Part shown: positions 33,552 through 36,342 of the stretch, one piece after another
Numbering within the stretch: the stretch's first letter is position 1
Layout of the letters: each line of letters opens with the position of its first letter
Assembly: GCA_034521975.1 (NCBI GenBank)
Contig: JAXHLR010000005.1
Span: 186,001-250,000 of the forward strand
Source of the DNA: Acidimicrobiales bacterium
GTDB lineage: Bacteria; Actinomycetota; Acidimicrobiia; Acidimicrobiales; SKKL01
Reading direction: 5' to 3'
DNA length: 64,000 bases
Notes under the pieces: generated by a model
Database searches by the model: none
Told to the model about the DNA's origin: nothing
The model's input: only the letters and a program-made list of their open reading frames with translations
Translations under genes and position numbers: made by a program

Positions 33552-33653
33552 CTATTTGCCCTTGGCTCGACGCTGGAAGCGAGTCCGCTTCAGCATCTTG
33601 CGGTGCTTCTTCTTGCGCATGCGCTTGCGGCGCTTCTTGACCAGCGATCCCAT
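33552..33653 (-). CDS. Small ribosomal protein bS22 (AURKAIP1/COX24-domain type)
   Basis: 33 residues: MGSLVKKRRKRMRKKKHR then KMLKRTRFQRRAKGK. The KKRRKRMxKKKHRK core is that of the actinobacterial AURKAIP1/COX24-domain protein, identified as bS22 in mycobacterial 30S subunits. It is too short for most gene finders. A TACCGT box ten bases before the ATG suggests a very short or no leader. It is convergent with ispE and upstream of tRNA-Gln on the opposite strand. Confidence 0.85.
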   Translation of the reverse strand: MGSLVKKRRKRMRKKKHRKMLKRTRFQRRAKGK

Positions 33654-33729
33654 GAGGCTGTGCACGGTAGCGGTCAGCGGACCGATCGTGCGAACCGAGC
33701 TCGCAGAGGCGGTAGCGTCGGGGGACCGA

Positions 33730-33802
33730 TCGCGGGTAGTTCAATCGGCAGAACGCCTGACTTTGGATCAGGAGGTTGGAGGTTCGAGCCCTCCCCCGCG
33801 AG
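33730..33802 (+). tRNA. tRNA-Gln (anticodon TTG)
   Basis: Acceptor TCGCGGG (33730-33736) pairs with CCCGCGA (33795-33801), discriminator G. The D stem is GTTC/GAAC. The anticodon stem CCTGA/TCAGG holds the loop CTTTGGA, giving TTG. The T arm is GGAGG-TTCGAGC-CCTCC. No CCA is encoded. A TAGCGT box upstream is a possible promoter element. Confidence 0.96.
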
Positions 33803-33827
33803 CTCGAGCACGGAGCCGTTCGGCCCA

Positions 33828-33855
33828 TTGACTGGGTAGCGACGGGCGGTAACCT
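33828..33855 (+). promoter_or_regulatory. Promoter of the intergenic 6C-like RNA
   Basis: TTGACT (33828-33833), a 16-bp spacer and TAACCT (33850-33855). By eye this is the closest sigma70 match in the window, yet no gene follows on the plus strand. Confidence 0.5.
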
Positions 33856-33861
33856 CAGGGA

Positions 33862-33990
33862 TCCACGCCACAACAGCTTCCCCCTGGGTGGCGTGGTGCG
33901 CTCCCCCCAATGGTGCGCATGCTTGTTGGGTTGGGAGACCGGGCGGTGGGCATCGTTCGAACGGTGGCCTGCCGCCCGGCCCAACCCGCT
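33862..33990 (+). ncRNA. Candidate small RNA, 6C-like (two C-rich-loop hairpins plus terminal stem)
   Basis: Downstream of a good promoter lie three hairpins in a row. Hairpin 1 is CACGCCAC/GTGGCGTG (33864-33871, 33888-33895), with five consecutive C in the loop. Hairpin 2 is TGCGC/GCGCA (33897-33901, 33915-33919), with six consecutive C in the loop. The third is a long stem of GGGTTGGG...CCGGGCGG with CCGCCCGG-CCCAACCC (33928-33987). Two C-loop hairpins followed by a terminator-like stem is the published architecture of actinobacterial 6C RNA (Rfam). The match is structural, made by eye, not by covariance model. No T-run follows the last stem. Plus-strand coding frames here have no support. 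Confidence 0.5.
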
Positions 33991-34011
33991 ACTCGGCGTG
34001 CTGCGCAGCGC

Positions 34012-34028
34012 GAAGCCGGTTGGGCTTC
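34012..34028 (-). terminator. Small hairpin at the end of the GGDEF gene
   Basis: GAAGCC (34012-34017), loop GGTTG and GGCTTC (34023-34028) overlap the minus-strand gene's stop. There is no T-tract; a weak terminator candidate. Confidence 0.25.
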
Positions 34029-35148
34029 ACCGACGATGATCGTGTCGACGGGTCACACGGCTGATGACCCGCAGCGGCGCGGTCGCCAGCGTGCACGCGG
34101 CGTCCACCACCGCGTCGATCTCGTCGCCGAGCCCGCCGGGTGGCCGTGGTGGGGATGGGTCCGCGTGCTGCGCCTCGGTCCGGTGCAGTCGCTTCGACGC
34201 GTACATCTCCAGGTCGGCTCGCCGCCACGCCTCGTGCAGATCTCCACCCGGAGGGCACTCCGCCGCTCCGATCGAGGCCGCCAACCCCGCTTGGTCGACG
34301 CTCGCCCTGAGACGCGCAGCCAGCCCTTCGCCGGTGCCGGGTGCCGAACCTGGGGCCAGCAGGGCGAACTCGTCTCCACCCAGGCGGGCGACAACATCAT
34401 CGGCTCGGGCGGTGGTGCTGATGCAGCGGGCCAACGACCGGATCTGTTCGTCCCCGTAGGCGTGCCCGAGCCGGTCGTTGGTCTCCTTCAGGTCGTCCAG
34501 ATCGATCACCAGGACCGACGCCGCCTGGTCCAGGGTCCGACACCGCATCGCCTCCCGCTGGATGGCCTCGTCCCATCCGGCCCGGTTCAACACGCCGGTC
34601 ATGCCGTCTCGCTGGCGCTGTTCCACCGCCTCCAGCACCTGGATCTGGGCCTGGTCGCTCGCCTCCTGCAACGCCAGCAGCGATCCCACCAATCCGCCCA
34701 ACACCTCGACCGTCTCGAGCTCGTCGACCAGCGACGGATCGCTGGGTTCGGGGTCGATCCCACACAGCACACCCAGGACCTCGCCCGAGGGCACCCGCAG
34801 TGGGGTCCCCACGAACGAACCCACCACGAACTCGCTCGCGGTGGCCGCCGCCGCGAGCTCAGGCGCCGCTGACACGTCGGGGGCGACCGCCGGTACGGCA
34901 TCGGACAGCGCCGCCGCGCAGAACGACTCCGCCCAACCCAACACCTCGTCGCCAACCTCGCCGTGCTGGGTCCGGTCGATCATGCGGACAGCGATCGTCT
35001 CCCCACCCGTTCGGGTGACCAGCCACAGGCCCAGCCCGAGTCGACGAGCCAGTAGCGACAAGACCCGGTCGACGGCGGTCTCCACCACCCCCGTCAGCGT
35101 CAGATCGACCTCAGGTGCACTGCTGCGCCGTGGCCACGAATCCTCCAT
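34027..35148 (-). CDS. GAF-GGDEF diguanylate cyclase
   Basis: Soluble 373-aa protein. A GAF-like sensor (about 15-165) and a short helical linker lead into a GGDEF domain with an intact active site ARLGGDEF (~254), so it should make c-di-GMP. The RxxD product-inhibition site (RADD, five residues before GGDEF) is present. GMTGVLNRAGWDE is the domain start. No membrane segment and no EAL domain. Upstream TACTGT five bases before the ATG suggests a leaderless mRNA. A proline-rich tail follows the domain. Confidence 0.9.
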   Translation of the reverse strand: MEDSWPRRSSAPEVDLTLTGVVETAVDRVLSLLARRLGLGLWLVTRTGGETIAVRMIDRTQHGEVGDEVLGWAESFCAAALSDAVPAVAPDVSAAPELAAAATASEFVVGSFVGTPLRVPSGEVLGVLCGIDPEPSDPSLVDELETVEVLGGLVGSLLALQEASDQAQIQVLEAVEQRQRDGMTGVLNRAGWDEAIQREAMRCRTLDQAASVLVIDLDDLKETNDRLGHAYGDEQIRSLARCISTTARADDVVARLGGDEFALLAPGSAPGTGEGLAARLRASVDQAGLAASIGAAECPPGGDLHEAWRRADLEMYASKRLHRTEAQHADPSPPRPPGGLGDEIDAVVDAACTLATAPLRVISRVTRRHDHRR

Positions 35149-35206
35149 CGGTCACAGTATCGGCTCCTCAACTGCCAGTTTCGTGGGCCATTCGGACCCT
35201 TCGCGC

Positions 35207-36250
35207 TCAGGACCGGGTGAGCACGACCTTCAATGCACCGGTCTCGCCGGCGCGTTCGAACACGTCGTAGGCCTCCATGAAGTCGTCGAGGGCGAAGCGG
35301 TGGGTCACGAACTGTCCCGGTTCGACCTGGTGGCCGGTGATCAGGCGCAGCAGGGTCGGCGTGGAGTAGGTGTCGACCAGGCCGGTCGTGATGGTGACGT
35401 TGCGGATCCACAGCTCCTCGAGGTGCAGGGTCGCCGGCTCGCCGTGCACTCCGATGTTGGGGACCCGGCCACCGGGACGGATGAGCTGGGTGCACAGCTC
35501 GAAGGTCGCGGGGATGCCGACCGCTTCGATCGCCACGTCGGCGCCGAGGCCGTCGGTGAGGCCCTTCACGACCTCGTGGGGGTCCTGGTTCGAGTTGTTG
35601 ACCGTCACGTCGGCCCCGAACTGCTTGGCTGCCTCGAGGCGGTTGTCGGCGAGATCGATGGCGACGATGTGGGACGGGTTGAACAGGCGAGCGCCCATGA
35701 TGGCGGCCAGCCCGATGGGGCCGGCACCGACCACCGCCACGGTGTCGCCGGGTGAGACCGCCCCGTTGAGCACGCCGACCTCATAGCCGGTGGGAAGGAT
35801 GTCGGCCAGCATCAACACCTCTTCGTCGCTGACGCCTTCGGGCACCGGGTAGGTCGAGGTGTCGGCGAAGGGGACCCGCACCCGTTCGGCCTGGGTGCCG
35901 TCGATGAGGTGGCCGAGGATCCAGCCGCCACCGCCGATGCACTGCCCATAGCTTCCTTCGCGGCAGTAGCGGCACGCGCCGCAGGCGGTGATGCAGGAGA
36001 CCAGCACCCGGTCGCCCACGGCGACGTTCTTCACCGCCGAGCCGACCTGCTCGACCGTGCCGACCGCTTCGTGGCCGAGGACGCGGCCGTCGGTCACCGC
36101 GGGAACATCGCCTTTGAGGATGTGCAGGTCGGTGCCGCAGATGGTCACCGCGTCGACCCTCACCACGGCGTCGGTGTCGGCCTCGAGGCCAGGGTCGGGG
36201 ACCTCCTCCCATGCCTTGTTGCCCGGGCCGTGGTAGACGATGGCTCGCAT
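35207..36250 (-). CDS. Zinc-dependent alcohol dehydrogenase (MDR family)
   Basis: 347-aa medium-chain dehydrogenase. Catalytic zinc ligands are C38 (TICGTDLH) and H60-E61 (LGHEAVG). The structural zinc cysteines C90, C93, C96 and C104 are intact (CGACRYCREGSYGQC). The Rossmann motif is VVGAGPIGLAAI near 175. The overall pattern resembles class III-like/Tdh-like actinobacterial alcohol dehydrogenases; the substrate is unknown. GGGGAGA precedes the ATG. It stands alone. Confidence 0.88.
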   Translation of the reverse strand: MRAIVYHGPGNKAWEEVPDPGLEADTDAVVRVDAVTICGTDLHILKGDVPAVTDGRVLGHEAVGTVEQVGSAVKNVAVGDRVLVSCITACGACRYCREGSYGQCIGGGGWILGHLIDGTQAERVRVPFADTSTYPVPEGVSDEEVLMLADILPTGYEVGVLNGAVSPGDTVAVVGAGPIGLAAIMGARLFNPSHIVAIDLADNRLEAAKQFGADVTVNNSNQDPHEVVKGLTDGLGADVAIEAVGIPATFELCTQLIRPGGRVPNIGVHGEPATLHLEELWIRNVTITTGLVDTYSTPTLLRLITGHQVEPGQFVTHRFALDDFMEAYDVFERAGETGALKVVLTRS

Positions 36251-36342
36251 GGTGGATCTCCCCGAGGTGGGATGGTTTCTGATCGCCTGCTCTTACCCGA
36301 ACGCTCCTCGCTTCACACCACCGTCCGTGACACGATGAACCC

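Follow-up and report, generated by a model that had tools for sequence, protein, structure and literature searches.

Assessment of a candidate small RNA with two cytosine-loop hairpins between tRNA-Gln and a GAF-GGDEF gene in an Acidimicrobiales genome

The window, that is, the whole stretch of 64,000 nucleotides analysed here (G000:C5:186001-250000), is part of a 3.3-Mb genome with a GC content of 69%, whose closest named relatives are Acidimicrobiia/Acidimicrobiales MAGs, with a best IspE identity of 80%. The genes around the element under study are arranged in the order of a metallo-beta-lactamase-fold protein (-), ispE (+), a 33-residue protein (-), tRNA-Gln (+), the element, a GAF-GGDEF protein (-), a zinc alcohol dehydrogenase (-), glmU (+), and prs (+), where the names ispE and glmU were assigned by family and context. 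The 33-residue protein is rich in Lys and Arg, and we take it to be ribosomal protein bS22. The element consists of a promoter-like box, two hairpins with cytosine runs in their loops, and a long GC stem (Table 1). The open reading frames that cross it show no clear coding signature.

Table 1. Coordinates of the element and its neighbors in the window.
Feature	Position	Strand	Description	Basis
Lys/Arg-rich protein	33552-33653	-	33 residues	
tRNA-Gln (TTG)	33730-33803	+	upstream neighbor of the element	Rfam tRNA, 68.9 bits; ARAGORN
Candidate promoter	33828-33855	+	TTGACT-16-TAACCT	sole TTGAC-N17..20-TANNNT match in the 64-kb window
Hairpin 1	33863-33896	+	9-bp outer stem, inner 3-bp stem, C5 in the loop (33880-33884)	folding
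Hairpin 2	33897-33919	+	5 bp plus 2 inner pairs, C6 (33903-33908)	folding
Long GC stem	33927-33988	+	62 nt, terminator-like, loop without C-run, no U-run	folding
GAF-GGDEF gene	34027-35148	-	convergent neighbor of the element	Pfam GGDEF, 101.9 bits; GAF, 33.7 bits

The promoter-like box that the first-pass annotation placed after tRNA-Gln is present, with TTGACT at 33828-33833 and TAACCT at 33850-33855 separated by a 16-nt spacer. It agrees with the E. coli consensus at 8 of 12 positions, including three of the six positions of the -10 box, and was not called by a stricter promoter scanner. The pattern TTGAC-N17..20-TANNNT, a promoter motif of actinobacterial type, occurs once on both strands of the window versus 0.27 times expected from shuffles, at least one match is found in 24 of 100 shuffled windows, and three matches occur per 400 kb of background taken as stretches from the same genome. 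The predicted start at ~33862 adjoins the first base of hairpin 1, and the box ends 7-8 nt ahead of that hairpin. A promoter of this sigma-A type would thus start transcription at hairpin 1.

Hairpin 1 carries the C5 loop ascribed to it, with an outer stem of 9 bp rather than the 8 bp given at first; hairpin 2, with its 5-bp stem and C6 loop, and the long GC stem, with the arms originally described, are both recovered by folding. Hairpin 2 is followed by TGCTTGTT, and the terminator-like stem is separate from it. The C-runs of both hairpins are predicted to be largely unpaired, with one to two cytosines of each run paired; in hairpin 2, four of the six are predicted to be mostly unpaired. The whole element folds more stably than its shuffles on the plus strand (z of -4.3, 0 of 200 shuffles) versus a z of -2.1 on the minus strand, and the two C-loop hairpins taken without the long stem give a z of -2.7. 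An 80-mer with the terminal stem reaches -52.8 kcal/mol and is more stable than all 2000 random background 80-mers from the same genome.

The two C-loop hairpins are the sole such pair in the window. Pairs of this kind arise by chance about three times per shuffled window and six times per 400 kb of the same genome; hence, the C-loops alone are unremarkable. The unusual trait, among features that were chosen after looking at the sequence, is the succession of a promoter, C-loops, and a strong stem in one intergenic region. It is quite possible, though short of probable, that no RNA gene exists here and that the long GC stem acts as a terminator in both directions, with tRNA-Gln (+) on one side and the GGDEF gene (-) on the other, the C-loop hairpins and the promoter box being chance products of GC-rich DNA. 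The position of the stem between convergent genes, the chance frequency of C-loop pairs, the modest z of the hairpins alone, and a complete lack of conservation (see below) all agree with this explanation, but it needs three ordered coincidences within 160 nt, namely a promoter match of the frequency given above, paired C-loop hairpins, and a stem more stable than any of the 2000 background samples.

The distance from tRNA-Gln to glmU is less than 100 bp in 37 of 43 same-strand ispE loci and 2539 bp in the window, where the 2.5-kb stretch at 33804-36342, containing the element, the GGDEF gene, and the zinc dehydrogenase gene, parts the two. Because tRNA-Gln adjoins glmU in most relatives, the element appears to lie, together with the GGDEF and dehydrogenase genes, in a lineage-specific insertion. 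The GGDEF orthologue of a congener (G001) is located elsewhere, beside a c-type-cytochrome-like reading frame and with no adjoining tRNA. Direct repeats of the kind left by integration at a tRNA were sought, and the best, 16 nt with an 88% match, was unconvincing. At another locus (L143:4694-4740), tandem CGACGGCCCCCCGAG-type repeats stand right after tRNA-Gln; the C-runs there were set aside as tandem repeats, and similar repeats occur at a contig end in L136. The same gene order bears on whether the element is a trailer, or a processing or termination structure, of the tRNA-Gln transcript instead of a separate gene. The two share a strand, only 24 nt lie between the tRNA end and the promoter-like box, and a strong stem ends the array; the short tRNA-Gln to glmU distance in relatives nevertheless leaves no room for such a structure, and a separate promoter match stands between the tRNA and the hairpins, so we consider a trailer very improbable.

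The paired arms, whose conservation in relatives was a proposed check of the first-pass annotation, found no counterpart in any of the searches. The element is absent by blastn from 59 relatives; blastn against the congener and two family mates returned short chance-level pieces, in the family mates of up to 44 nt, and those inspected there looked coding. A single-sequence covariance model of the element gave, across 298 genomes of the order, one convincing match, which was the element itself, and it found nothing in 80 ispE loci. The best match outside the element's own genome (G016; model R1, 33.6 bits, E 6e-4) was rejected, as it falls inside a reading frame that resembles glyceraldehyde-3-phosphate dehydrogenase by sequence. 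No homologue was found among the searched relatives, and the paired arms have no conserved, covarying counterpart there.

The element had been proposed to be a 6C RNA, with the Rfam model as the test. RF01066, with a cut-off of 47 bits, gave no match over the window at gathering, none on 33700-34100 at E<=10, and none in the element's own genome at E<=1. Other weak Rfam matches at the locus, including SAM-SAH at 19.7 bits versus a cut-off of 40 and several microRNA families, were dismissed as chance. RF01066 may have failed here because it fits this class badly: none of 247 Acidimicrobiia genomes passes its cut-off, and the order's own 6C RNAs also fall below 47 bits, the best at 46.2. We therefore built an order-specific model. 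Weak RF01066 matches in one family (f54) are flanked, where both neighbors are detectable, by pyruvate-dehydrogenase-E1-alpha-like and pyridoxamine-oxidase-like genes (named from sequence). Five of these f54 loci made up model R2, with which more unmistakable 6C RNAs were recovered from families other than f54, and 16 6C RNAs of the order aligned to R2 made up model R3. In the R3 alignment, 104 cells changed on both sides, as opposed to 29 in shuffles, and the paired share of cells is 93%; these counts favor the structure, to which the alignment had been fitted. Of 387 genomes of the order, 86 have R3 matches at E<=0.05, with a top score of 82 bits, and 70 places match at E<0.001, scoring about 35 bits or more.

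With all filters off, R3 gives the element 16.1 bits, at an E of 0.16 over the 64 kb, which is the top match in the window. An unrelated place in the same window scores 15.6 bits, and 100 kb of background reaches 14.6 bits; the best match genome-wide, at C3:188544, scores 18.7 bits and was rejected because the place looks coding. The score is level with background, and the element is therefore inseparable from noise under R3, a model that works in the element's own order. Together with the failed Rfam search, the unconserved arms, and a last C-loop hairpin without a U-tail, this places the element outside the 6C family by the tests applied, and the proposed identity falls. We judge it unlikely that the element is a true 6C RNA, relocated here and now strongly diverged or decaying, in a genome otherwise without 6C. 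Such a history would accord with the presence of 6C RNAs at several loci in many genomes of the order, with the lack of any other 6C found in this genome, and with the rank of the element as top R3 match; however, the score equals background, hairpin 2 lacks a terminator stem of the CCCGCC...GGCGGG type as well as a U-tail, intermediate forms were not seen, and a family mate (G003) holds a better 6C-like candidate.

That candidate (L274:1501-1574, minus strand, plus ~60 bases 5' of it, on G003:C170) has three serial C-run hairpins and a U-tail; it scores 24.9 bits with R3 (E 0.14) and has a LysR-like regulator on one side and a carboxyltransferase-like gene on the other, both named from sequence. 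A possible 6C-like RNA with two C-run hairpins was also observed in the congener (L273 ~1468-1551, on G001:C3; R3 26.2 bits, E 0.07), upstream of a nitronate-monooxygenase-like gene. Two other R3 matches were rejected, L275 for overlapping the 3' end of a tRNA and L277 by its matching sequence. At four f54 loci (L233, L234, L237, and L238), the first 6C hairpin has no C-run and the C-loop terminator hairpin is retained, at the same pyridoxamine-oxidase-like locus. By R3, many genomes of the order carry 6C RNAs (L032, L033, L036, L232, L239, L256, L258-L267, L270, and L284-L299), and Rfam appears to miss the Acidimicrobiia branch of 6C. The literature searched contained no mention of 6C RNA together with Acidimicrobi-.

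Since the 6C tests failed and no relative searched carries the element, it can be at most a young and unproven RNA with a comparable design. Our tentative preference, held with slightly less than even confidence, is for a lineage-specific small RNA gene of ~125-130 nt with a 6C-like layout. The promoter, the start at hairpin 1, the strand-specific folding, and the 3' stem form a plausible unit, and the small-RNA part of the first-pass annotation survives to that extent, separated from its 6C identity. The lack of conservation, the missing U-run, the poor -10 box, and the chance recurrence of C-loop pairs argue against it. We infer transcription, termination, and any target of this candidate: the RNA would expose C-runs on two hairpins, and its 3' end would fall within or beyond the long GC stem, at ~33988. 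If the element is transcribed, pairing of its exposed C-runs with G-tracts, as shown for B11, is a natural guess, and the loops would most likely pair in trans with G-rich translation-start regions of mRNAs as in mycobacterial B11/6C. The neighboring GAF-GGDEF gene, suggested earlier as a partner, finds no support as a target, as there is no G-tract at its start and its duplex of -10.3 kcal/mol is close to the random median of -11.4; some genes of the window reach -18, with gene starts that are mechanical guesses.

It is rather doubtful, although conceivable, that a C-loop regulatory RNA evolved at this new locus without descent from 6C, its lineage having apparently lost 6C, which would make it a case of convergent cytosine-loop pairing. 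If transcribed, the element would be a C-loop small RNA outside the 6C family and would offer a simple test of the repeated evolution of such pairing in GC-rich actinobacteria. At present, it is one unconserved candidate; a firmer side result is the frequent occurrence of 6C RNAs in this Acidimicrobiia order, where they score below the Rfam cut-off.

6C RNAs are defined by two stem-loops with about six or more cytosines in each loop (PMC4046766); the element has two stem-loops, with C5 and C6, of which one to two cytosines per run are paired. It resembles 6C/B11 (RF01066) in the serial pair of hairpins with C-run loops, the actinobacterial genome, the free-standing intergenic position, and the proposed pairing of C-loops with G-tracts, which is established for B11 at ribosome sites (PMC12395582, PMC10470900), but it differs in having no covariance-model support, U-tail, or conservation. 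In Mycobacterium marinum, the terminator loop of B11 is itself a C-loop hairpin (PMC12395582). The last C-loop hairpin of the element, by contrast, is short and is not a U-tailed Rho-independent terminator, and an extra long stem free of a C-run follows it. With the Acidimicrobiia 6C RNAs identified in this analysis (L032, L033, L036, L232, L239, L256, L258-L265, L267, and L270), the element shares the order and the two C-run loops; these RNAs occupy other loci and have a second stem of 12-13 bp, mostly with a CCCGCC/GGCGGG core, that is usually U-tailed and covaries strongly, whereas the element has neither such a stem nor a U-tail. Finally, in position and shape, the long GC stem resembles the U-run-free, intrinsic-terminator-like GC stems found between convergent genes, a likeness that leaves the promoter match and the two upstream C-loop hairpins unexplained.
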